Source: Terrimicrobiaceae bacterium (GTDB taxonomy: Bacteria > Verrucomicrobiota > Verrucomicrobiia > Chthoniobacterales > JAATET01). Taken from it: DNA of 32,275 nt. This document shows positions 4,465 to 21,933 of this stretch, piece after piece. The notes under the pieces are model-generated. The model did no database searches, was not told the origin of the DNA, and saw only the letters and a list, made by a program, of their open reading frames with translations. The stretch covers positions 1-32,275 of the forward strand of contig JAQTOP010000035.1 of assembly GCA_028713285.1 (NCBI GenBank), read 5' to 3'. The first letter of the stretch is position 1. Each line of letters begins with the position of its first letter. The translations under genes and the position numbers were made by a program.

Positions 4465-6402
4465 GTGCCGGTGAAAGCGAGTTTATTGCGCGGGCGAAAC
4501 GTGCGGCGAGCGAAGTCAAGGTCCGCTTGCATCGTCATCGATGCCGTCGATGCGCACCGGCAGGTCGAGAAGGAGCTTCGATACCAGCGGGAGGTCGAGA
4601 GGGCGTTGCGGCGCGAGAGCAGGATGCGCGCGGCGGCGGAGCGCGTGGTGCGCAAGCAATCGCAGGCCTTGTCGAACACATTGAATCTACTGCTTCGCGA
4701 GCCGGAGCATGCGGACTTTGTGCGGGCGATCCTGCGGGCGATCACGCGCGAATGCGAGGGGCTCTGGGCGACGTTCTGGGAGATCGACCGGGCGAAAGAG
4801 CCAGCCAGCAGGGCAATCTCGTTTTATTGCGATTTGGAGATCGAAGGGGCGGTTGAGGGGTTCACCGCCGGGCACCCTCGAGAGGTCGCCCGGCTGGCTC
4901 GGCTGTATCTCGCCCTGTTGAAGGATCACCGATGCACGATTGTGCTGGCCGCCGACGACCCGCGGGTGCCTCGCGCAATCCGCTCGTTTTACGAGGTGTT
5001 GCAAGTGCGCAGCATGTTGCTGACTCCCCTGTTGGTGAGCAACGAGCTGCTCGGCTGGATCTGCCACCTCAGCAAGGAGGCGGCGAACCGCATCCATCCG
5101 GACAAGGTGGCCTTCCTGGAGGCGACGGGGAAGCAGACGATCCTGGCCACCCACCTCAAGTCGCTGGGCGAAGCTGCTCGTGTGTCGGAGCGTGCGCGGG
5201 AGCGCGAACGCGCGGCGATCGAGAAGGAGGCGGAACTCAATCGGATTGGCCGGCTGCTGCGGGTGCCGTTGATCGAAGCGTCCGGCGAACTCGAGGGCAT
5301 CGACGCGCTTCTCAAGGGCGTGCTGCAAAACATGGTCGGGCTATTGGAAGGAGAGTCGGCGAGCCTCTGGAAGCGGGATGGCGATCCCGACGCGCACGCT
5401 CCGATCCTGCTCTGGCGGGACGGTCGCCCATTCCTTCTGCCGCCCGATGAATCCCGGGAGTTGGGACTGCTGGCGCGAACAAATCATCATGCGCTTTTGA
5501 AGCTATGGTCGGGAGCGGACGACATTCTCATCGAGAAATCCTCTTCGCCGCGCATGCGGCGTTTCCTCGGCGAGGCCTCCCCTCACCGGGAGGCGCTGTC
5601 CGGCAGTCACATCGTGACGATACCCTTGAGTTTCAACGACGAGGCCCCGGGTTTCGTTTTGATCTCGACGTCGCGGATCCCGCGGAGGGCGGACGAACGC
5701 TGCCTGGCGGTCAAAGCCCTCGCGCTGCAAGCGGCGCTGGCGCTCCGCCTGCATCGTCTGTCGAAGGCACAGCGCCGCGCGGCGCTGGCTGGTGAGCGCA
5801 ACCGCATCGCACGGGACATGCACGATCTTCTCGCCCAGGCGTTCAGCGGCATTGCGTTGCAGATTGAGGCCATGAGGGCTGAGTGCCCGGATTTGCCCGC
5901 GGCGGTAACGGAGCGCCTGGAGAAAATCCGCGACCACGCCGGACGCAGCGTCGATGCGGTGCGGCGCTCGATCCAGATGCTGCGACCGGCGTTGCTCGAC
6001 AACCACACTCTGGCCGATGCCCTTGTCTCGCTTGGCCGGGAGATGGAAATGGCCTGCGGAATTCCCATCAAGGTCTCGACCGGGCGGGGCGTCCCCCCGC
6101 TCGACTCGAAGCTCGAGATTCATCTTTTTTCCATCGCGTCGGAGGCGATGCGGAACGCAACCCGGCACGCCTGTTCGCGACGGATCACGGTCTCATTGAG
6201 GAATATCCGAGGGCGCTTGTCGATGGTCGTTCAGGACGACGGGTTGGGTTTTGAAGGCAGTACGATCCGGGGTGGAAAGCCGGCGCACTTTGGTCTGGCA
6301 AACATGCGGGAGCGCGCGCGCGACATCGGAGGAAGCCTCACCGTGAGGAGCAGGCCGGGCAGCGGCACGCGGGTGGAGGTCGCGGTGCCTTTGAACGGGT
6401 AG
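4465..6402 (+). CDS. GAF-domain sensor histidine kinase, NarL/HisKA_3 type
   Basis: A cytoplasmic sensor kinase of 645 residues with no membrane segment. Residues about 35-75 form a charged coiled coil (ELRYQREVERALRRES). Two GAF-like segments follow (about 80-205 and 260-425). The HisKA_3 dimerisation domain then carries the phospho-acceptor H453 in RNRIARDMHDLLAQAF. The HATPase_c domain shows the N-box with E560 and N564 (SEAMRNATRHA), the G1 box DDGLGFEG from 591, and the final FGLANMRERARDIGG and SRPGSGTRVEV motifs. The GTG at 4465 is preferred, with AGAAAGG four bases upstream. Its partner is the response regulator 86 bases downstream. The signal is unknown; GAF domains often sense small molecules or redox state. 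Confidence 0.92.
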   Translation: MPVKASLLRGRNVRRAKSRSACIVIDAVDAHRQVEKELRYQREVERALRRESRMRAAAERVVRKQSQALSNTLNLLLREPEHADFVRAILRAITRECEGLWATFWEIDRAKEPASRAISFYCDLEIEGAVEGFTAGHPREVARLARLYLALLKDHRCTIVLAADDPRVPRAIRSFYEVLQVRSMLLTPLLVSNELLGWICHLSKEAANRIHPDKVAFLEATGKQTILATHLKSLGEAARVSERARERERAAIEKEAELNRIGRLLRVPLIEASGELEGIDALLKGVLQNMVGLLEGESASLWKRDGDPDAHAPILLWRDGRPFLLPPDESRELGLLARTNHHALLKLWSGADDILIEKSSSPRMRRFLGEASPHREALSGSHIVTIPLSFNDEAPGFVLISTSRIPRRADERCLAVKALALQAALALRLHRLSKAQRRAALAGERNRIARDMHDLLAQAFSGIALQIEAMRAECPDLPAAVTERLEKIRDHAGRSVDAVRRSIQMLRPALLDNHTLADALVSLGREMEMACGIPIKVSTGRGVPPLDSKLEIHLFSIASEAMRNATRHACSRRITVSLRNIRGRLSMVVQDDGLGFEGSTIRGGKPAHFGLANMRERARDIGGSLTVRSRPGSGTRVEVAVPLNG

Positions 6403-6488
6403 GCCGGTCTTCCACTTACCGAAATGGTGCGTTTGCTTCATCATCCCGGGCGGTTCTCGCGCCGGTCGCTCGTGAGGGACCAGTCCGC

Positions 6489-7145
6489 ATGACGTGCATT
6501 TCATCCAGATCCGTCCAGAGGAAGGCGAGCCGCGTGTTTCGCGTGCTCCTTGTGGACGATCATCCCTTTGTGCGGGACGGCCTGGCGGGCCTGTTGGGCA
6601 GTCAGCCGGAGTTTGAGATCGCGGGCGAGGCAGGCACGGCGGGCGAGGCAATCGCGAAGCTGCGGGAGCTGCGGCCGGACGCGATCATTGTTGACCTGCG
6701 TTTGCCCGACATGGACGGAACCAAGGTCCTGATGGCCGCGCGGGAGATGCGATGGAAACCCGCAGTGATTGTGCTGAGCGCATTTCGCTCGGACGACGAT
6801 TTGCTGGCGACGGCGCGGGCCGGTGCGATGGCCTTTTTGTTGAAAACCGAGCATGGCGGAAAAGTGCTCGAAACGATTCGCCTCGTGCTGGGCGGTGAGA
6901 ATGTCCTGTTGAGCGAGCTTTCACCCTCATTGCGCGTGCGGCTGCTCCAGAAAGATTTGACCGACAAGGAAATGATCGTTTTGAAGCTTCTGGGCAGCGG
7001 ACTGACCAACAAGGAGATTTGCGCCAGCACCCGGCTTTCAGAAAACACGATCAAGACGCACTTGCGCGCAATTTTCTCCAAGCTCGATGTCTCGAATCGA
7101 GCAGAGGCCACGGCCATCGCGCTGCGGCGCGGATTGGTCGGATGA
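6489..7145 (+). CDS. NarL/FixJ-family response regulator
   Basis: A 218-residue transcription factor. The receiver domain holds the acidic pair in LLVDDHP (D23, D24), the phospho-acceptor D69 in IIVDLRLPDMDG, S97 and the conserved K119 in FLLKTEH. A LuxR-type helix-turn-helix fills about 155-215 (LTDKEMIVLKLLGSGLTNKE and ENTIKTHLRAIFSKLDV). The ATG has GAGGGA at 6474-6479, nine bases upstream. It is the likely phosphorylation partner of the kinase just upstream. Targets are not shown; the exported-protein block 218 bases downstream is one candidate by position only. Confidence 0.94.
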   Translation: MTCISSRSVQRKASRVFRVLLVDDHPFVRDGLAGLLGSQPEFEIAGEAGTAGEAIAKLRELRPDAIIVDLRLPDMDGTKVLMAAREMRWKPAVIVLSAFRSDDDLLATARAGAMAFLLKTEHGGKVLETIRLVLGGENVLLSELSPSLRVRLLQKDLTDKEMIVLKLLGSGLTNKEICASTRLSENTIKTHLRAIFSKLDVSNRAEATAIALRRGLVG

Positions 7146-7363: not shown

Positions 7364-10300
7364 ATGCAAAAAAAGATCGTTACCCGCAGCATCCAGCACC
7401 TGGTGGGGAATCCCCGCCGGATGCGGGCATTTGCCTGCATCGCCGCTTCCACCATGTTCCTTACCGAGGCACAGGCCGTCACCCGAATCTGGGATCCAGC
7501 TTTGACGGGAATCGGATCCGATGGAAGCGGAACCTGGAGCACGGCGATCTCGAACTGGGCCACCGGAAGCGGAAACGTTGTCTGGAACAACGCGGGCGGC
7601 GACACGGCGGTCTTTGGCACTGCGGGCATCGCCGGGCCCGTGACGGTCTCGGGAACGGTTTCCCTGGCCGCATTGGTCTTCAATCCGGTGGCGGGGAATT
7701 ATTCGCTCTCCGGCGGCACGATCGGCGTCGGATCCGCCGCCACGATCACCACGAACTCGGATACGACGATCACTTCCAAGTTCAGCGGCACCACGGCGGT
7801 CCTGACCAAGGATGGAACCGGTAAACTCACCATCAACAGCACGACGAATATCGGCATCTCCACGATCAACGTGACTGCCGGCACGCTCGCCACGGGGACC
7901 AGCGGCTCGTCCTCGTTTGGCAACAGCTCCACGGCGATCGTCGTGTCGAGCGACGCGGTGGTGCAGGTCGCCTCCGGCTCGGTGATCCAGAACAACATCA
8001 CCTTCAACGGCGGAATCAACGCCGTGGCCTTCATCGGTGGCGCGACCTTGAGCGGGACCATCACGCTGGCCTCGGGCGACACGAAAATCAACACGAGCAA
8101 TGCGGCTTTGATCTCCGGCGGGATCACCGGATTGGGAAGCCTGACGCTCAACGGCCCGAACAAGCTGACCTTGAGCGGGGTGAATGACTTCTCCGGCGGG
8201 ACGACGATCCTGGACGGCATTCTGGAAGTGGACGGTGGCAGCTCGCTGGGAACCGGCGCGGTGAGCAACGCGACGAACCTGGCGTTCAATACGACCGCGG
8301 CCGACCTGGTGATCGCCAACGCGATCAGCGGCGGCGGTTCGATCACGAAATCCGGCACGGGAACGTTAACGTTGACAGGTCCGATCACCTCGACGGGCTT
8401 CACGATTGTGAGCGGCGGCACGCTGCAGCTGAACAGCACCAAGACAGGAACGACGGGAGCCAGCGGGAGCCTGCTGTATGTGTCGGGAGCCGGCTCGGTG
8501 CTCGGCGGCACGGGCACGATCATCGGTGCGACGACCGGTGCGCTCACCCTTCTGGCCGGAGGCGCCGTGTCGCCCGGTCTGCCGAACACGATGGGCACTC
8601 TGTCCGTCACCAGCGTGGCCTGGACCAGCGACAACGTCACGGCGGGCATGATCTACAATTTGAGCAACACCGACAACACCTCGGATTCGCTCGCGGTGAC
8701 GGGCGCATTCACGCGCAGCTCGGGAACCAGCTACATCTTCGATTTCCAAAACAGCGGCATGCTGGGCCAGACCTACACGCTGGTCACCTATGGCAGCACG
8801 GCCTCGACCTCGGTGGCGAACCTGGTCGCAACGAATCTCCCGAGCGGCCTCGTGGGCGTCTTCTCGTTCACGGGCACCGGCGTTGGGAGTCTGCAATTTA
8901 CCGCGGTGCCGGAGTCCGCGGAGGTCGGATTCGTTTTTGCGGCATTCGCAGGGGTGGTCATCTTCGTGCGGCGCAGGCGCAGCAAAGGGTCGGCTGACAA
9001 CCTCAAAATGTTTATGAAAAAACAGCCAACCCGGAATGTAATGCGGGCGATCCTCGTGGCCGCCTTCACTGCGCTCGCCCCGCAAGTTGCCGGAGCGAAA
9101 ACGATCACCGTCAATCTCGAAACGGCCACCTTTGACGACCTTCAGGCGGCGATGAATGCCGGAGCGATCACCTCGGTGGAACTGGCGACGCTGTATTTGA
9201 ATCGGCGCGCGGTTTACGACCAGGCAGGCATCAAGATCAACTCGGTGGTCTCAATCAATCCTACGGTTTTCGACGACGCCGCTGCGCAGGATGATCTTCG
9301 CAATCACGGCACGCTCCTCGGGCCCCTGCAAGGCCTGCTTTTTTGCACGAAGGACTCCTATCCGACCGTGGGCATGGTGACGAGCGGCGGCGTGAAGGCG
9401 TGGCTGTCATCCGTTCTCGGCGCGCCTCCGGCAACCGCAGGAATCGATGACGAAAACGGAGTCACTTACGGACCGGTGATTTCGCCGGCAGATTGCTTCG
9501 TGGTGGCGAAGCTCAAGGCGGCCGGAGCCGTCCAGCTTGGCCATGGCAACATGGACACGTGGGCGACCTCCGCAAGCAGCACGACATCGAACGCCTATGG
9601 CACTACGCTCAATGCCTACTGCCTCGGCAGCGCCTCTGGCAGCAGCGGCGGTCCCGGCGCATTGACGGGCTCGGACTTTGCGAACTTTGCATGGGGCGGT
9701 GAGACGGGCGGTTCCATTCGGAATCCGTCGGATCGCGGCGGGGTGACCGGTTTCAAGGTCTCCGTGGGAACGAATTCCGTGAACAACATCATCCCGCTGG
9801 CTTCGGATCGCGATGTCGTCGGGCCGATGGCGCGATACGTCAAGGATGAGGCCTACATCATGGATGCCGCCGCCACGGTGCTCGACCCCGCCGACTTGTG
9901 GTTCTCCATCAACTATGTCCCGGGGCGCGGGCTGGACAGCGGCTATGCGAGCAAGTTGGCAGGCACCTCGCTTTCGGGCAAAACAATCGGCGTCGTGGGC
10001 ACCTATCTCGGCGCCGCCCGGCCGACACCGGCTCCCACACCGGTGCAGCTCGACGATGCCGATGTGGAAAAGGCGCTCGGTGTTGGGAACGGCCACGGCG
10101 GCATCCTGAACTTCGGGACCACGTCATCATCGAATACCACCGGCGTGAATACGCCCGATGTCCCGGTGAAGGCCGCGCATGATCGCCTGGTGACAGAACT
10201 TCAGGCCATGGGTGCGACAGTGGTCACGGTGTTCCTGCCGCCGAATCTCGATACAGCCGTAGCGCCGCCCACTACGTTTACCGACACGACCGCCACCCCG

Positions 10301-11152
10301 AAGGCGGTGCTCGTGGCGCCCTTCAGCAATCAAACTCTGGCTTACGAAAACGCCGGATTCCAACTCTTTCACGGACAGGGCATCTACACCCGCCTTACCC
10401 AAGCGAATGCCGCCAGCGGTTCGTTGAGCACGACGGTTCGCAATCTCGCATATGCCGGAACGTTCACGACCTTCACGGATCCCGTGCCTGTGGAGCACTT
10501 CAAATTGAAGGCGATCTACAACGCGATCTACGAAAAGTTCCTGGCGACGAATGGCCTCGACTGTCTCATCTGGCCGGTGAGCTTCTCGAAAAGTCGGGCG
10601 AGCAATTCGGTGAGCGGTCGCGACCTGGTGAACAACATGGGGCTTCCCGTCTGCACGGTTCCGATTGGCGTCTATCCCTTGCTGGGCGGGGAGCCGATCG
10701 ACGAGGCCTTCCTGGGGCGCTACCGCAAGGAAGCCGACGTGCTGGCCATCGCCGGTGCCTACCAGAGGGCATATAACCATCGCTTCCCTTCGCCGCTCTC
10801 GCCCCCGCTCGATGGGGAAACGATCACCTACACGACCCTGGGATCGATTTTTCCCCAGAAGAAGCCGGACAAGCTCGCGCCGGTGGTCTCGATCAAGAAA
10901 AAGGCGACGCTGTCCGGCGCCAAAATCGCGATCAACGGAGTCGCCGTGGATGCCAGCGGGATCCTGTCCATCAAGGTCTTCGTGAACGGCCGAAAGATTG
11001 CGGTGAAAGCCGGCAAGCGGTGGACCGCAAAAGTGTCTCTCGCCGACATCAAGAAATGGACGAAATCGAAATCCACCGCGCTCGATGTGATCGTGCTGGC
11101 GAAGGATATCTACGGCAACGCGTCGGCCACGGAGAAAGTCGTCAAATTCTAA
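7364..11152 (+). CDS. Beta-strand-repeat PEP-CTERM protein fused in frame to an exported amidase
   Basis: One frame of 1262 codons carrying what look like two proteins. Part one (about 1-545) has a signal peptide to about residue 38 and Gly/Thr/Ser-rich autotransporter-associated beta-strand repeats (for example GTLTLTGPITSTGFTIVSGG). It ends in a PEP-CTERM-type tail: VPES at 515-518, a hydrophobic helix, and RRRR. Part two begins with MFMKKQ at 549 and a second signal-like segment. It then has an amidase-signature domain with the triad K663, cis-S761 (GSSGGPGAL) and S784 (GGSIRNPS). An Ig-like module of about 90 residues closes it. PEP-CTERM tails normally end a protein, so read-through into an amidase is odd. 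A one-base difference near 8980-8995 would bring the TGA at 8995-8997 into frame and split the gene. Confidence 0.8.
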   Translation: MQKKIVTRSIQHLVGNPRRMRAFACIAASTMFLTEAQAVTRIWDPALTGIGSDGSGTWSTAISNWATGSGNVVWNNAGGDTAVFGTAGIAGPVTVSGTVSLAALVFNPVAGNYSLSGGTIGVGSAATITTNSDTTITSKFSGTTAVLTKDGTGKLTINSTTNIGISTINVTAGTLATGTSGSSSFGNSSTAIVVSSDAVVQVASGSVIQNNITFNGGINAVAFIGGATLSGTITLASGDTKINTSNAALISGGITGLGSLTLNGPNKLTLSGVNDFSGGTTILDGILEVDGGSSLGTGAVSNATNLAFNTTAADLVIANAISGGGSITKSGTGTLTLTGPITSTGFTIVSGGTLQLNSTKTGTTGASGSLLYVSGAGSVLGGTGTIIGATTGALTLLAGGAVSPGLPNTMGTLSVTSVAWTSDNVTAGMIYNLSNTDNTSDSLAVTGAFTRSSGTSYIFDFQNSGMLGQTYTLVTYGSTASTSVANLVATNLPSGLVGVFSFTGTGVGSLQFTAVPESAEVGFVFAAFAGVVIFVRRRRSKGSADNLKMFMKKQPTRNVMRAILVAAFTALAPQVAGAKTITVNLETATFDDLQAAMNAGAITSVELATLYLNRRAVYDQAGIKINSVVSINPTVFDDAAAQDDLRNHGTLLGPLQGLLFCTKDSYPTVGMVTSGGVKAWLSSVLGAPPATAGIDDENGVTYGPVISPADCFVVAKLKAAGAVQLGHGNMDTWATSASSTTSNAYGTTLNAYCLGSASGSSGGPGALTGSDFANFAWGGETGGSIRNPSDRGGVTGFKVSVGTNSVNNIIPLASDRDVVGPMARYVKDEAYIMDAAATVLDPADLWFSINYVPGRGLDSGYASKLAGTSLSGKTIGVVGTYLGAARPTPAPTPVQLDDADVEKALGVGNGHGGILNFGTTSSSNTTGVNTPDVPVKAAHDRLVTELQAMGATVVTVFLPPNLDTAVAPPTTFTDTTATPKAVLVAPFSNQTLAYENAGFQLFHGQGIYTRLTQANAASGSLSTTVRNLAYAGTFTTFTDPVPVEHFKLKAIYNAIYEKFLATNGLDCLIWPVSFSKSRASNSVSGRDLVNNMGLPVCTVPIGVYPLLGGEPIDEAFLGRYRKEADVLAIAGAYQRAYNHRFPSPLSPPLDGETITYTTLGSIFPQKKPDKLAPVVSIKKKATLSGAKIAINGVAVDASGILSIKVFVNGRKIAVKAGKRWTAKVSLADIKKWTKSKSTALDVIVLAKDIYGNASATEKVVKF
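9008..11152 (+). other. Amidase module that may be a separate gene
   Basis: An ATG at 9008 (and another at 9014) lies in frame directly after the PEP-CTERM-like tail. It opens a complete exported amidase: MFMKKQPTRNVMRA, a hydrophobic core, cleavage near AGA-KT at about 30, then the amidase-signature fold and a C-terminal Ig-like module. Amidase-signature enzymes hydrolyse amide bonds with a Ser-cisSer-Lys triad, and all three residues are present. No clear Shine-Dalgarno site precedes the ATG. If independent it is 714 residues long. The substrate cannot be predicted; exported members act on peptides or other amides. Confidence 0.55.
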
Positions 11153-11248: not shown

Positions 11249-12886
11249 ATGTTGAAGTTCTGTCCGAAGTCCGTCGCTGGTTGGGGGGCAGGCATTGCGC
11301 TTTTTGGAATCGCAATCGTCGGCTCGTTCCTGCTCCTCGGCTCAAAGGAAAAATCTCGAGGCACTGGCGGAGACGCGCGTTCGAAGTCGGAAAATGGCGC
11401 TTCCATCAAAACTGCTGCTGCGAAAGCCGCGGAAAAGAATCTGGAGCAATGGAAATCCCGAATTGCCGCCGCGGGGCCGAAGGACTTTGCCGATTTGATG
11501 CGAGAGTTGCTGACCATGCGCGATCCCACCCTGCGGGCGCAAGTCGCCAAACTGCTGGTGGCGAAATGGGTGAGTGTGGATCTGACCGGCTTCATCGCCT
11601 TCGTGGATGAGACCGAAGTCGATGACGACGGCGAGGCGGATTCCCTTTGGGCATTGCTGGCGCCGGCGCTGGCCGGCGCACTGCCGACCTTGTCCGACGA
11701 CGTGGCGTCGCGTCCCGAACTGAATGAAGTCGTGCGCCGGCTCATCGAGTATTCGGCGCGGAAAAATCCCGTCCAGGCCCTGGCTTGGGCGAAGCAATGG
11801 CTGCTGGACGATGCGTTGGAATCCGCGCTGGCCACCATCGCCGGCGAAATGATCAAGAAATCGCCCGAGCAGGCGCTCGCGGTGCTTGAACAAATCCATA
11901 CTTCGGTTCGCCGCGTGGATGCCATCAGTGCGATTGCCGCCGTCTATGGGACCACGCATCCCGGCGAAGCGACGGCGTGGGCGAAGGGACTGGCGATACC
12001 CGCGGAGCGGCCTTACGCGGTGAACGCGGTCCTCGCCGCGCGGGCGGAAATCGAACCGGAGGCCGCCTCGAAGGAGTTCATTGATTTTCGGGAAAAGATG
12101 GTGGCCGCCTATTCTGTCGAGAGGGCCGCGGAGATGGCCAGGATGGGAGTTTCCGACATCAAGGAGCACAAGAATGGCGAGCCGTTGACGCCCGAGGAGG
12201 CGATGGATTCGGAGACCTTGCCGGGCAGGGACGACCCGCAGATCGGTCTGCTCGACGACGCGGCGATGGCCATCGCCCGGAATTGGGCCGCCGCCGACCC
12301 CGCCAAAGCCATTCAGTGGTCCGAGTCGCTCCCCACCGGCCGGATGAAGGACGACGTCATCCAAAGCGCGTTGACCGGCTGGGCCTCGCGGCAACCGGAC
12401 GCGGCTTACGCCTACTATAAGAAGAACTATTCGTCGGATGCGGCGCCCGCCCAGCCGATTTTCGAGGCATGGGCTCAGGTGGAGCCGGCGCAGGCGGCCG
12501 AGCAGGCGAGTCAGTTGACTGATCCCGCCTTGCGGGAAAAGGCGGTCAGTGGCGTGGTGAGCGGCTGGCTGGACGGATCCACGGACCAGGGGGCTCTCGC
12601 GGCATGGGTGGATAAGCTGCCCGGCAAGCAGGAGCGGGATAATGCCAATTCGCAGATCGCCGAGGCCACCAGTTACGACGAGCCGGGCACGGCCTGGCAG
12701 CGGGCGACGGCGATTCAGAATCAGAGCACGAGAAGGGAAGCGCTCAAATCGGCTTTTGCGAGTCTGGTGGAGAGCGATCCCGGCCAGGCGCGCACCCTGC
12801 TTGCGGAGGCAAAGAACCTCACCCCCGACGAGACGAATCGCCTGAACAAGATGCTCGATGCCGCAACCCCCAAGTCATCAAATTAA
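11249..12886 (+). CDS. Membrane-anchored alpha-repeat protein of the xPxxAxxW type
   Basis: A 545-residue protein with an N-terminal membrane anchor or uncleaved signal (about 10-31, GAGIALFGIAIVGSFLLLG) and a large helical domain outside the membrane. The helical part is built from degenerate units of about 35-60 residues, such as NPVQALAWAKQWLLDDALES, HPGEATAWAKGLAIPAERP, DPAKAIQWSESLPTGRMKDD and EPAQAAEQASQL. These form an xPxxAxxWxxxLPxxxxRxxA pattern like a TPR/HEAT solenoid. Such proteins are abundant in Verrucomicrobiota in my recollection and have no assigned function; a scaffold role is a guess. The downstream PEP-CTERM gene overlaps its 3' end, so the two are probably co-transcribed. 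The ATG has a weak GGTGAAG upstream. Confidence 0.8.
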   Translation: MLKFCPKSVAGWGAGIALFGIAIVGSFLLLGSKEKSRGTGGDARSKSENGASIKTAAAKAAEKNLEQWKSRIAAAGPKDFADLMRELLTMRDPTLRAQVAKLLVAKWVSVDLTGFIAFVDETEVDDDGEADSLWALLAPALAGALPTLSDDVASRPELNEVVRRLIEYSARKNPVQALAWAKQWLLDDALESALATIAGEMIKKSPEQALAVLEQIHTSVRRVDAISAIAAVYGTTHPGEATAWAKGLAIPAERPYAVNAVLAARAEIEPEAASKEFIDFREKMVAAYSVERAAEMARMGVSDIKEHKNGEPLTPEEAMDSETLPGRDDPQIGLLDDAAMAIARNWAAADPAKAIQWSESLPTGRMKDDVIQSALTGWASRQPDAAYAYYKKNYSSDAAPAQPIFEAWAQVEPAQAAEQASQLTDPALREKAVSGVVSGWLDGSTDQGALAAWVDKLPGKQERDNANSQIAEATSYDEPGTAWQRATAIQNQSTRREALKSAFASLVESDPGQARTLLAEAKNLTPDETNRLNKMLDAATPKSSN

Positions 12887-13721
12887 GGTGTTCGTGAAGT
12901 TTGCGCATGCCGCGCCGGCTCGACGATGGCGGCCCCTGCTCTGCCTGGCGACGCTCTGGTTCGGAGCGGCGCCGTTTTGCAACGCGCAGGTTTTGTCGTG
13001 GAGCACTCCGCTGGGATCGGTGACGGTCTTTGGGAGCGGACCGCGTGCGACGTTCCTACAGACGAATGCCGCGCTGGGCGGTGTCGATGGCGCGGATTTT
13101 CTGAATTTCCTGGACGCGACCAGCTCGCCGGCGATCTCGCGGTCCGAGGCAATTACGATGAACGCGTCGATCGCCTCCATCGCGCAGTTGGCGGTGAACG
13201 AGTCGCAGACTGGCGGCCTGCCGTTTACCTCGGGGAGCATCGGGTTCACGTCCACGGGCGCCGGCGGCGGGAGCGGCTCCGGCGCGATCAAGCTCTACTT
13301 TTTGATCCATGTTCCGAATCCGGTGATGATCGACCTGAGCGGCATTCGCAGCGCCGTCACGACGGCGGGATCGCCCGCCGACGCATTTTCGCTCGCTCTG
13401 TTCCAGAGCGACGCCACCGGCGCGGAGATTGGGAGCGCCCTGCTCTCCTGCACCGGAAATCTTTTCGACCAGGGCGGGAGCTATCAAAGCAGCCTCCCGT
13501 ATTATCTCGTCGAGATGAACGCCGTGGCGAATGCCACCGCGGGTTCATCCGAGGCGGTGACATTTTCCTTTCCTGTCGATCTGGCGGAGATCATGCCGGT
13601 GCCCGAGCCTGGCGCAACCTCCTTGCTAATATTAGCATTTGTCCTTGGATCCGCCCTGTTGAAGTTCAACAAACGCGGTTCTCAATGCGAACCGTCCCGA
13701 AGGTCCGGCGCTTCCGCCTGA
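12858..13721 (+). CDS. PEP-CTERM sorting domain protein
   Basis: An exported protein of 287 residues with a signal peptide (Arg-rich stretch, then PLLCLATLWFGAAPFCNAQ, cleavage near residue 43) and a Gly/Ser/Ala-rich beta-type body. The C-terminus is a textbook PEP-CTERM signal: VPEPGATS, a helix (LLILAFVLGSALL) and basic KFNKR. It is then followed by an unusual 15-residue hydrophilic tail (GSQCEPSRRSGASA). Such proteins are handled by an exosortase and moved to the outer surface; no exosortase gene lies in the window. The frame overlaps the upstream gene by 29 bases from this ATG. A GTG at 12888, just after the upstream stop, is an alternative start giving a shorter n-region. The body shows no domain I recognise. 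Confidence 0.82.
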   Translation: MPQPPSHQIKVFVKFAHAAPARRWRPLLCLATLWFGAAPFCNAQVLSWSTPLGSVTVFGSGPRATFLQTNAALGGVDGADFLNFLDATSSPAISRSEAITMNASIASIAQLAVNESQTGGLPFTSGSIGFTSTGAGGGSGSGAIKLYFLIHVPNPVMIDLSGIRSAVTTAGSPADAFSLALFQSDATGAEIGSALLSCTGNLFDQGGSYQSSLPYYLVEMNAVANATAGSSEAVTFSFPVDLAEIMPVPEPGATSLLILAFVLGSALLKFNKRGSQCEPSRRSGASA

Positions 13722-16408: not shown

Positions 16409-19400
16409 GTGGCTATTGACTCCACGGATTCGGCCTCCAGTCGTCCACGCGGACGCTCCCGCCGGTTTCGGCTCTGGCCGTGGCTGCTTCTCGCCGTTGC
16501 GATCGCATTCTGGTTTGGCCATGAGCCGGCGCTGATTTGGAGCGCACGGAAGGCGATCTCGACCTTCGGACCGCGGCTGGGCGTCCGTCTGGAAGTTGGC
16601 GCGATGCGGTTGCACCTGTTCCAGCCGATCGAGCTTCGCGAGATTCGTTTTCGCGTAACGAATCCTCCCGCTTCGAGCACGGATGTGACCGCCGGACGCA
16701 TCAGTCTCACCGCAAACTCGTTGTGGGAGATTCTATTTGGGGACGGGCGCGTGTTCAGCCAGCTCGATGTGGATGGGATCCGTGGCACATTTGACTTTCG
16801 CAAGCCTGCGCTCATCCCGCAGCCGATGCCGACGCTCACGCGCGAGAAGCAGGAACAGCTCGCGGCGCTCACGCTGCGCTTTCTGCCGAAGGCGCTCCGC
16901 CTGAGATCCAGCGGCGCGGTATTCCTGGCGGACGGCCAAGCCTACACGCTGCGCGGTGTGGACGGCGATTTCACCGAGGCGGCCAGCGGAGAACTCACGG
17001 TGAAAAGCGCCCTCATCCAGGCCGGCTCGATTCGTCAGGAGATCGTCAACGGACGGGCGGCGACGGCATGGAAGGACGGCGCGCTTTATCTTTCGGACCT
17101 CCGGTTGCGCGACGAGATCATCATCCGCGACTTCGTGGCGAATTTCGTGAACTTGGGCGGCGTTTCCCTCGATTGGGACGTCGGCGCATACGGCGGCACG
17201 GTGCGAGGCAACATCGTTTTCGGCTCGGAGGAGGACGAACTGCGGCTCGCCGCCTCGGTGGCCGTCGTCAACCTCCCGATCAAGCCCATTCCCGGCCTGA
17301 TCGCGCTCCCCGTGCGGGCGGACGGCATCGTTCGCGACGCACGGATCACGTTCCGCGGAAATCCCGACCACCCCCTGGACGACGAGATTTCGCTGCGGGT
17401 TTCGGCCGACAACTTCCGATGGAATGAGCGCGGCTGGCAGTCGCTCGTCGCAGGTGCGAATTACATCGGGCGCCGGCTTTACCTTTCGACCTTCGACCTC
17501 GCGCAGGCAGACAATCGCATCTCGGCCAACGGCGAGCTTGCGATCCCGGAGCAGTTGAAGGACGTCCGGAATGCCCACTATTTTGTGAATCTTGCGGCGG
17601 ATGTGCGCGACCTTGCCGCGCTTTCCGCGCTGGCCGGGCCGCCATTCGATCAGCTCGGCGGCCAGTTCTACCTTCACGGCACGATCCAGGGCGACAACGG
17701 CCGCCTCAGCGGCTACCTGAACGGCGAAGCCAGCGGCATTCGCTACCTTGCGCTTCCGCCCGCCTCCGCCCGCCTTTCCCTCGTCGCGCAAAACGACGAG
17801 CTTCAAATTCGCTACGCGAACCTTTGGGCTGGAAGCGACCGCATCGAGGCGAAGGGCGGCATCGGCATTCGTGAGCCGCATCGTTACACCGGAGAGTTGA
17901 CCGGACGCATCGAGGACCTCGGGATCTATGCGCCCTTTGCCGGCGCGGCGGTCGCGCAGAATGTGTTCACCGGCGCCGCCACCCTCGATTGGCAGGGCGA
18001 CGGGACCATGACCGCAAACTCGGGGTCGTTCCACGTGCGGCTCGACCACATGGTGACCAGCGCCACGCCGACCGGACTCACGGGCGAATTCGCCGCGACC
18101 TACTCGCCCGAGAATATTTACTTCAAGACTGTCCGGCTCACGCACGCGCAGTTGGAGCTGAATTCCCAGCTCACCATCTCCGCCAGCGGCGTCAACGTCA
18201 CCGGCCTCTCGCTGCGCCGCGGGAAGCTCAGCCTCCTCGCCGGCGAGGGTTTTGTGCCATTGAACGTCTTTGCCTTGAGCGCAGGAAAAACGCTTGCGCA
18301 GGCGCTCGCGACGGACAAGCCCGTGTATGCCGACTTCACTTCCGGCGATCTTCCCGTGGCGGAACTTATTCAAATGGCGGGCCAAAAGGCGAGCGTCCGC
18401 GGCCGCCTGCGCGGGAATCTCGGGGCCTCCGGCACGCTGCCGAGGCTTGAACTCGCCGGCCAGCTCATCGGTCGCGACCTGTCGGCCACCATTGAGGACT
18501 TTACGATCCCAGCGACCACCGCCGACATTGCGCTGGGCACCCGCGACGGACGCATCGATGTAAAAGGTTCAATCCAGACGCGCGGTTTCCAGCCGATGAC
18601 GCTCGATGCGCATATGCCCTTCGCCTACGAGGAGACAAGGGATGGACTCGTGCGCCTGTTCCACCACGACGCGCCAATTTCGGCGAAGCTGTCCTTCCCC
18701 GGCACGAGTCTGGAAATTTTCCGCCCATTCGTTCCCGCCGCCCGGAGGCTGCAGGGCGCGCTGGCGGGGAATGCGACGGTCGCCGGCACGTTGAATGCGC
18801 CGAAGATCGACGGCGAAGCCACCCTTTCCGGCGGCGATATCGAACTCTCGCCCGACCTCCCGCGAATCAACGCCCTTGGCGCCCGCGTGCTCATGAATAC
18901 GTCCCGCATCACCCTCGAGTCGTTGCGCGGCGAGGTGGGCGCCGGTCCGTTCGAGGCATCCGGTTGGGCCGATCTGACGAACCCCCAACAGCCGCGACTG
19001 CATCTCCAGTTCAAGGGCTCGAAGATCCTCCTTGCGCGCGATCCCGGGCTGCGCCTTCGCGCCGATCTCGACATTGCCGCCGACGGCCGCGGCACGGACG
19101 GGGCGATTACCGGCGAGGTCCGATTCGTCGAGGGTCGCATCTTCAAGAAGATTGAAGTCACGCCCTTTCTCGTGCCGAATCCCGTGAGCGGCCCCGCCTT
19201 CGCGATTCCCAATTTCGCCGGTCTCGTGCCCGAGCCCTGGGGCCGATGGAAGCTCGACGTATCGATCAAAAACGGCACGCCGTTCCTCCTCCTGGGCAAC
19301 CTCGCCACCGGCGAGATTGCTCCGGATCTCGCCGTGCGCGGAACGCTCGCCGCGCCCTATCTCGAAGGCACCATCTCCCTCAAAAATCTCCAGGCCTACC

Positions 19401-19897
19401 TGCCCGCCACCACGCTGCTCATTCCCGATGGCAAAATCTATTTCACGCCGCAGAATCCGTTCATGCCGATCATGGACGTTCGTGCCCGCGCCGACGTCTC
19501 CGGCTACAACGTCCAGATGTATGCCTACGGTCCGCTCAGCGAACAAAACCTCGCGTTGCGCTCCGATCCGCCGCTCTCGCAGGAGAATCTCATCTTCCTG
19601 CTCACGACGGGTCTTACCCCCGCGGGCATGAGCGGCGCGGGACTCGGCGAGGCCGCCGCGGGGCAGGGCGGCATCATCCTTTTGCGCAGCCTCGTTCGCC
19701 AGCTCGAGCCATTCGGCATCGACCTCAATGACTTCGTGAATCGCCTCAGCGTCCGCGTCGTCCCGCCGAAGGATTCCTCGCAGGCCTCTTCGCTCATGAG
19801 CGAACTGCGCCTCACCGACCGCTTTTCGCTCACCACGGGCCGCGACGGCTACGGCTTCTACAACGCCGGCGTGCAATACACCATCCGCTTTCGGTAG
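16409..19897 (+). CDS. tamB: Translocation and assembly module protein TamB-like (DUF490)
   Basis: A 1162-residue AsmA/TamB-family protein. One N-terminal membrane helix (about 22-39, LWPWLLLAVAIAFWFG) anchors a long periplasmic beta-groove made of repetitive strands. The C-terminal DUF490 domain is recognisable from about 880 on: GRWKLDVSIKNGTPFLLLG, VRGTLAAPYLEGTISLKN, YFTPQNPFMPIMDVRA, and LRSDPPLSQENLIFLLTTG. It ends in a beta-signal-like YNAGVQYTIRFR. TamB-like proteins span the periplasm and are linked to outer-membrane protein assembly and phospholipid transfer. The GTG start at 16409 has no clear Shine-Dalgarno site. The Omp85 gene starts 2 bases after its stop, as in tamA-tamB pairs, though here tamB comes first. 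Confidence 0.9.
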   Translation: MAIDSTDSASSRPRGRSRRFRLWPWLLLAVAIAFWFGHEPALIWSARKAISTFGPRLGVRLEVGAMRLHLFQPIELREIRFRVTNPPASSTDVTAGRISLTANSLWEILFGDGRVFSQLDVDGIRGTFDFRKPALIPQPMPTLTREKQEQLAALTLRFLPKALRLRSSGAVFLADGQAYTLRGVDGDFTEAASGELTVKSALIQAGSIRQEIVNGRAATAWKDGALYLSDLRLRDEIIIRDFVANFVNLGGVSLDWDVGAYGGTVRGNIVFGSEEDELRLAASVAVVNLPIKPIPGLIALPVRADGIVRDARITFRGNPDHPLDDEISLRVSADNFRWNERGWQSLVAGANYIGRRLYLSTFDLAQADNRISANGELAIPEQLKDVRNAHYFVNLAADVRDLAALSALAGPPFDQLGGQFYLHGTIQGDNGRLSGYLNGEASGIRYLALPPASARLSLVAQNDELQIRYANLWAGSDRIEAKGGIGIREPHRYTGELTGRIEDLGIYAPFAGAAVAQNVFTGAATLDWQGDGTMTANSGSFHVRLDHMVTSATPTGLTGEFAATYSPENIYFKTVRLTHAQLELNSQLTISASGVNVTGLSLRRGKLSLLAGEGFVPLNVFALSAGKTLAQALATDKPVYADFTSGDLPVAELIQMAGQKASVRGRLRGNLGASGTLPRLELAGQLIGRDLSATIEDFTIPATTADIALGTRDGRIDVKGSIQTRGFQPMTLDAHMPFAYEETRDGLVRLFHHDAPISAKLSFPGTSLEIFRPFVPAARRLQGALAGNATVAGTLNAPKIDGEATLSGGDIELSPDLPRINALGARVLMNTSRITLESLRGEVGAGPFEASGWADLTNPQQPRLHLQFKGSKILLARDPGLRLRADLDIAADGRGTDGAITGEVRFVEGRIFKKIEVTPFLVPNPVSGPAFAIPNFAGLVPEPWGRWKLDVSIKNGTPFLLLGNLATGEIAPDLAVRGTLAAPYLEGTISLKNLQAYLPATTLLIPDGKIYFTPQNPFMPIMDVRARADVSGYNVQMYAYGPLSEQNLALRSDPPLSQENLIFLLTTGLTPAGMSGAGLGEAAAGQGGIILLRSLVRQLEPFGIDLNDFVNRLSVRVVPPKDSSQASSLMSELRLTDRFSLTTGRDGYGFYNAGVQYTIRFR

Positions 19898-19899
19898 CC

Positions 19900-21933
19900 A
19901 TGCGGGGAGTCCTCCTCGCCATCGCCGCGTGGTTTGGGCTCTGGGCGCCCGCGCGCCCGCCCGCCGGCGACATCCACTTCCAGGGGAACGAATCCTTCGG
20001 CTCCGCGCAGCTTCTCGCCATCCTTCGGAACCGCTACGACATCCCGCTGCATGGCGATTTCGGGGTCACCGACGCCGACGACGCCGCGTTTTTCCTGCGC
20101 ACCTTCTATTTCTCGCGCGGCTATCGGGCCGCAAGCGTTGCCTACACCTTCCGGCCCGCGCATCCGCCGTCCGTGCTTTTTGCCATCGATGAAGGCGGAC
20201 GGAACTCCATCGGGGGCGTCTCATTTGACGGCGCATCCGATCTGCCGCCCGACCGCTTGCGTGAGATTTTCGATGCCGCCGTCCGCCAGGCCACGCTCCG
20301 TCCCTTCGGTCGCATGCGCTACGTCGAGAGCGCGGTCGAAGCGGGCCGTGTCGCCATTGTCAATGCGCTCGCCCAGCGCGGTTTCCTCGTCGCCGCCGCC
20401 ACGGTCTCGGACTCGCCCGCCTCCCTGCCCGGGCTCGTGGACCTGCGCATTCGCATCGACCAGGGCGTGTGCTATTTTGTGCGCGGCGTCTCCTTTGCCG
20501 GCGCGCCGGTCGATGATGCCATGCTGCGCGGCGTGCTCCGCGAATACCTCGACCAGCCCTACCAGCGCAATCAGGAGGCGCTCATGCGCACCCGGGTGCA
20601 GGACTGGCTGCGCAATCGCGGCTACCTGCAGGCCGAAGTCGCGACGACCGCCACGCTCGATCCCGTTTCCGGAAAAGTCACCGTCGTCTTCGACATCGCG
20701 GCCGGGCGGACCTACAAGATCGGCCACATTCGCGTCGAGGGAGTCCGCGACACGAGGGTATCCGCCATCCTTTCCCGATTCGCAGTCCATCCGGGCACGC
20801 CCTACGATGCGTCGAAAGTCGATGCCGCCGCCCGCCGCCTGTGGTTTAGCGGAGCGTTCGCGGAGGCCGATGTCCAGCGCGTGCCGAACGCCGACGGCAC
20901 GGTCGATCTCCTGCTCAAGATCGAGGAGGCTCCCGCGAAGCGCATCCAGTTCGGCCTCGGCTACAGCCAATGGGATCGCGGTTACGGCCAGATTCATTAC
21001 ATCGACCGAAATTTCCTCGGCACGCTGAACCGCTTCTCGATCGACGGCGAGCTTTCCCAGCGCAGCTACGGCATCTCGACCGCGCTCACCGATCCCTGGC
21101 TCTTCGGCACGGACTTCGAGGGCTCCATCGGCGGCGCCTACGCCCGCCGCGAGCTGCCCGCCTATCGCTCGACCGAGGCAAGCGGCACCCTCACGCTCGC
21201 CCGCAGTTACAGCTCTGCGAACCTCACCGGCTACCGCTTCCAATACGGCTACAAGCGCGTGAGCGATGCCGAGGTCTTCGGCGAAGCCCCCGGCGGTCCG
21301 GTCTCCGATTACACCCTCGGCAGCCTCACCTTCAGCCAGACCTACGACACGAGAAACAACATCCTCAGCCCGATGAAGGGGCTCTTTCTCAACCATGAAA
21401 TCGAGGTCGCCAGCCCCGTCCTCCTTGGCGACATCTCGTTCCTGCGCCTGTCCGCCCAGGTCACCTACTACCTGCCGCTTCGCGAGATCACCACCGAGCA
21501 CCCGTTCATCCCGTTCGTCATTTTCAACCATCGCATCGGCGCGTTGCTTCCCTTTGGTGACACGAACAGCGTGCCCGTCCAGGAGCGCTTCTTCCTCGGC
21601 GGGCCGAATACCGTCCGCAGCTTCCAGCTCGACGGCCTTGGCCCGAGGGATCGGGGCGGCAACCCGATCGGCGGCCTCGCCATGCTCCTTTTCAACGCCG
21701 AAATCCAGTGGCCTGTTTTCAATAACATTTACCTCGCCGCCTTCACGGACGCGGGAAACCTCTGGTCCGACGTCCGCGACATCCAGCCCACGGACCTCCA
21801 GGTCGCCGTCGGTCCCGGCATGCGCATTTACACGCCGCTCGGGGCCATCCGCATCGACTACGGCTACAACGTCAACCGCCAGCCCGGCGACCCCATCGGC
21901 AACTGGCAGGTCGGCTTTGGGTTTACGTTTTGA
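19900..21933 (+). CDS. tamA: Omp85-family outer-membrane protein, TamA/BamA-like
   Basis: A 677-residue outer-membrane barrel protein with a signal peptide (about 1-19), a periplasmic region of POTRA domains (about 20-345) and a 16-strand-type barrel. POTRA features include YKIGHIRVEGVRDTRVSAIL at 277-296 and RLWFSGAFAEADVQ. Barrel features are IDRNFLGTLNRFSIDGELSQ, the lid-loop block ERFFLGGPNTVRSFQLDG (VRSF corresponds to the VRGF/Y motif) and the final YGYNVNRQPGDP to terminal Phe. It is probably the TamA partner of the TamB-like protein just upstream (2-base gap). A BamA-type role cannot be excluded, but the pairing and its length (E. coli TamA about 577, BamA about 810) leave TamA-like as the better name. 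Confidence 0.88.
   Translation: MRGVLLAIAAWFGLWAPARPPAGDIHFQGNESFGSAQLLAILRNRYDIPLHGDFGVTDADDAAFFLRTFYFSRGYRAASVAYTFRPAHPPSVLFAIDEGGRNSIGGVSFDGASDLPPDRLREIFDAAVRQATLRPFGRMRYVESAVEAGRVAIVNALAQRGFLVAAATVSDSPASLPGLVDLRIRIDQGVCYFVRGVSFAGAPVDDAMLRGVLREYLDQPYQRNQEALMRTRVQDWLRNRGYLQAEVATTATLDPVSGKVTVVFDIAAGRTYKIGHIRVEGVRDTRVSAILSRFAVHPGTPYDASKVDAAARRLWFSGAFAEADVQRVPNADGTVDLLLKIEEAPAKRIQFGLGYSQWDRGYGQIHYIDRNFLGTLNRFSIDGELSQRSYGISTALTDPWLFGTDFEGSIGGAYARRELPAYRSTEASGTLTLARSYSSANLTGYRFQYGYKRVSDAEVFGEAPGGPVSDYTLGSLTFSQTYDTRNNILSPMKGLFLNHEIEVASPVLLGDISFLRLSAQVTYYLPLREITTEHPFIPFVIFNHRIGALLPFGDTNSVPVQERFFLGGPNTVRSFQLDGLGPRDRGGNPIGGLAMLLFNAEIQWPVFNNIYLAAFTDAGNLWSDVRDIQPTDLQVAVGPGMRIYTPLGAIRIDYGYNVNRQPGDPIGNWQVGFGFTF

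Follow-up and report, generated by a model that had tools for sequence, protein, structure and literature searches.

An uninterrupted open reading frame of 1262 aa (positions 7364-11152, forward strand) lies in the window, the 32,275-nt contig of a Terrimicrobiaceae bacterium that was analysed here, and it is best explained by the loss of a stop codon between two neighbouring genes. The two genes are a conserved pair encoding a PATR/PEP-CTERM-like protein and an exported amidase. A real loss of the stop, whether tolerated or selected as a fusion, appears fairly probable to us, and a tolerated loss in this lineage, taken by itself, is the reading that we moderately favour. Much firmer than any choice between a real loss and an error is the descent of the two halves from two separate genes.

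Organization of the joined frame

The first-pass annotation had described a PEP-CTERM-like tail followed in frame by a new start, a signal peptide and a complete amidase, and this is what the frame holds: a PATR-repeat protein with a signal peptide, the tail, a 33-nt linker, and then a second start and signal peptide leading into the complete amidase (Table 1). Two families were matched when the frame was searched against Pfam, PF01425 Amidase (E 9e-42) and the PATR repeats (E 7e-9), and its three most hydrophobic segments were the PEP helix and the two signal peptides. The PATR protein is 52% identical over 542 residues to its orthologue in the sister genome G001 (G001:C88:49811-51442). The dN/dS ratios by the NG86 method are ~0.40 for the PATR half and ~0.19 for the amidase half, and purifying constraint acts on both halves. 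The window gave no Rfam match, no promoter was seen in a scan around the locus, and no terminator-like match was found inside the 33-nt linker.

Table 1. Features of the joined frame and of its immediate neighbours
Feature	Position	Strand	Basis
Histidine kinase and LuxR-type response regulator, upstream	4465..7145	+	Kept in sister genome
PATR (autotransporter-repeat) surface protein, signal-peptide-like N-terminus	7364..8980	+	Pfam PATR and TIGR02601 matches; orthologue of 544-aa G001 gene
PEP-CTERM-like tail (VPES, hydrophobic segment, RRRR)	8906..8980	+	Aligns with VPEPTEVG...RRRRQTN-stop of G001
Linker, 33 nt, in-frame stop absent	8981..9013	+	Stands where the two-gene form has the gene end, stop codon and gap
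TGA, one frame off the ORF	8995..8997	+	Read from sequence
Amidase start and signal peptide MKKQPTRNVMRAILVAAFTALAPQVAGA	9014..9097	+	Alternative ATG at 9008; own ATG and signal peptide also in G001
Exported amidase-signature enzyme with C-terminal extension	9098..11152	+	PF01425; 73% identity to G001; peptide amidase 1m21, E 4.9e-34
Downstream gene, 545 aa	11249..12886	+	Homologue after amidase at all loci examined (tblastn: L040, L041, L078-L082)

Two genes in a sister genome

Three other genomes of the genus were searched (G001, G002 and G003), and close orthologues of both halves were found only in G001. The syntenic locus there (G001:C88:49811-53668) has the same gene order as the window, i.e. 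histidine kinase, response regulator, PATR protein, amidase, a protein of ~550 aa and a second PEP-CTERM protein, but it differs in having a TAA and a 39-nt gap between the halves, and VPEP instead of VPES. The first gene, of 544 aa, ends in VPEPTEVGIGIAALAAFAIVMRRRRQTN followed by the TAA (RRRRQTN-stop), and the ATG and signal peptide of the 727-aa amidase come 39 nt further on. At the close locus, the two-gene form is seen in one sister genome. The earlier suggestion that a sequencing or mutation event had joined neighbours is supported by it, the search of relatives having turned up a genome in which RRRR is followed by a stop and the amidase is a separate gene. A single indel had also been put forward as the divide between one gene and two, and this is not required: since the G001 genes already share a frame, with a single TAA separating them, a substitution or an in-frame change suffices. 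The orthologous pair was not found in G002 or G003. What G003 has is the downstream gene's homologue alone, in another context (L087:7322-8884, on contig G003:C54, without an amidase).

Six further amidase homologues stand free: one each in G240, G244 and G309, two in G330, and a paralogous copy in G001. Each has a homologue of the downstream gene, ~510-560 aa long, after it, so that the conserved unit is the amidase with its downstream gene; the PATR protein was seen as a neighbour of the amidase in this genus only. The 545-aa gene of the window has no Pfam match. Its homologues come after a secreted amidase at every locus examined, including those of another family of the class, and hence the two products probably work together. 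The paralogous amidase and downstream-gene pair in the sister genome (L041:3068-6779, on contig G001:C48) suggests that a duplication or an acquisition involved the two-gene unit as a whole. Scans of genome contigs for relatives gave no confirmed relative, and the comparison made here is based on searches of whole genomes.

It can also be imagined that the joined frame is a selected natural fusion, in which surface passenger and amidase serve the cell as a single molecule or as a polyprotein that is maintained. If so, the internal degenerate PEP-CTERM helix and the internal signal peptide would form a membrane hairpin, and two exported proteins would come from one polypeptide. The long open frame, the compatible membrane topology and the change from PEP to PES, as though sorting had been abandoned, would all favour such a fusion. 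Against these stand the amidase having retained its own signal peptide, the spacer-like composition of the linker, and the distribution of the fused form, which was seen in no relative: among 384 genomes of the class there was no fused homologue, and the close orthologue elsewhere was in G001 only. We therefore consider a selected fusion very improbable, and a maintained hairpin polyprotein equally so. The proposal of a natural fusion as a new architecture thus finds no support, the sole relative with both genes having them in the two-gene form.

The linker and the out-of-frame TGA

Between RRRR and the ATG at 9014 there are 11 codons, none of them a stop, with a second ATG at 9008. The linker is 45% G+C (15/33), below the surrounding frame, and the G001 gap is about 44% (~17/39). 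CTCAAA stands upstream of the start in both leaders, and no obvious Shine-Dalgarno sequence was seen in either. In these respects the linker looks as a former spacer would.

The frame count confirmed that the TGA noted in the first-pass annotation is one frame off (mod 3 = 1, against mod 3 = 2 for the joined frame). It lies just past RRRR, near the position at which a stop would be expected from 26 other tails of the genome, and a one-base error could leave such a TGA. This would fit a consensus or assembly error, with two ordinary genes in the organism and the stop between them removed by a small mistake in the draft, as would the two-gene form in G001 and the draft state of the assembly, which consists of 157 contigs. 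However, a random 33-nt stretch of the window has a 12.6% chance of a stop in one given other frame, so the TGA is only weakly surprising and is a weak clue. Further points against an error are that the same-frame arrangement in G001 calls for no indel, that the PES in the tail is a separate departure from the motif, and that the neighbouring genes of the window, which have end-to-end Pfam matches or full-length homologues in the sister genome, show no frame breaks. Taken together, an error of this kind is possible but, in our view, rather doubtful. A second out-of-frame TGA, at 9015-9017, overlaps the ATGA start, as it would with any ATG followed by A.

The frame at 12858-13721 encodes the second PEP-CTERM protein; the preceding gene ends only past the first ATG of this frame, whose true start may lie further inside. 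Further downstream, a TamB-like gene adjoins an Omp85/POTRA gene (16409-21933), making a TAM-like outer-membrane assembly pair.

The PEP-CTERM-like tail

The tail, VPESAEVGFVFAAFAGVVIFVRRRR (residues 515-539), opens with VPES (residues 515-518) and closes with RRRR (residues 536-539, nt 8969-8980). Its helix contains the most hydrophobic 12-mer of the joined frame and is followed by the basic cluster, as in a PEP-CTERM tail. The Pro-Glu-Pro motif, nearly invariant in TIGR02595, is absent, VPES standing here against VPEP in the G001 orthologue, and the tail is not at the extreme C-terminus, with 723 residues beyond RRRR. With TIGR02595, a 61-aa piece holding the tail scored 12.8 bits, below the cut-off of 16; in a scan of a longer, 548-aa protein the tail was not listed, nor was that of the G001 orthologue. 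A search of the genome with the same model (E up to 1) gave the 26 other tails, all with PEP and all with a stop 24-45 codons past the motif, although, with a search that favours PEP tails, finding no other tail with PES is in part to be expected. The genome has two EpsH-family exosortase matches, one of them above the cut-off. The PES change together with the internal position suggests that the tail is no longer an exosortase sorting signal. A few PEP-CTERM proteins with dramatically longer tails, possibly non-functional, were described by Haft et al. 2006 (PMC1569441).

A proposed pathway for a tolerated stop loss

Returning to the preferred reading of a tolerated loss, it can be hypothesized that a small mutation in the former spacer removed the stop in this lineage, and that ribosomes would then read through. 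The product would be threaded such that the first signal peptide leads out the passenger, the PEP-CTERM helix crosses from out to in, RRRR stays inside, and, after a short cytoplasmic loop, the signal peptide of the amidase crosses from in to out. Since the positive-inside rule would put RRRR in the cytoplasm, this second signal peptide would start on the correct side for export. Signal peptidase could cut after VAGA and free the amidase in much the same way as when two genes encode the halves, so that the fused product could be nearly harmless and little would need to change. Internal initiation at 9008 or 9014 may also persist beside the read-through.

If the stop loss is real, the locus would be a natural case in which two exported proteins became joined where the topology tolerates it. 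It also carries a caution, in that a striking architecture with two signal peptides reduces to two adjacent genes once the sister genome is read.

Comparison with known systems

The amidase half belongs with the amidase signature family (PF01425), its core domain scoring 144 bits against a cut-off of 27. It resembles the peptide amidase 1m21/1m22 in this domain and in the Lys- and Ser-containing motifs (TKD, GSSGG, ETGGSIR), with K115, S212/S213 and S236 aligning with the motifs of 1m21 and invariant in an alignment of three sequences. We take these to be the catalytic residues, the Lys and the two Ser motifs. The enzyme here differs from the peptide amidase by its signal peptide, by insertions and by an extension of ~100 residues at the C-terminus.

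The first half shares with the substrates of the PEP-CTERM/exosortase system (TIGR02595; PMC1569441) a signal peptide, the motif region, the hydrophobic helix and the basic cluster, in a genome with exosortase homologues, but it departs from them in its PES motif, its score below the cut-off and an internal tail with more than 700 residues beyond. As a whole, the frame is like the fusions of adjacent prokaryotic genes in that neighbours on the same strand come to lie in one frame after the loss of a stop, whereas, unlike the established cases, it is seen here in one assembly.
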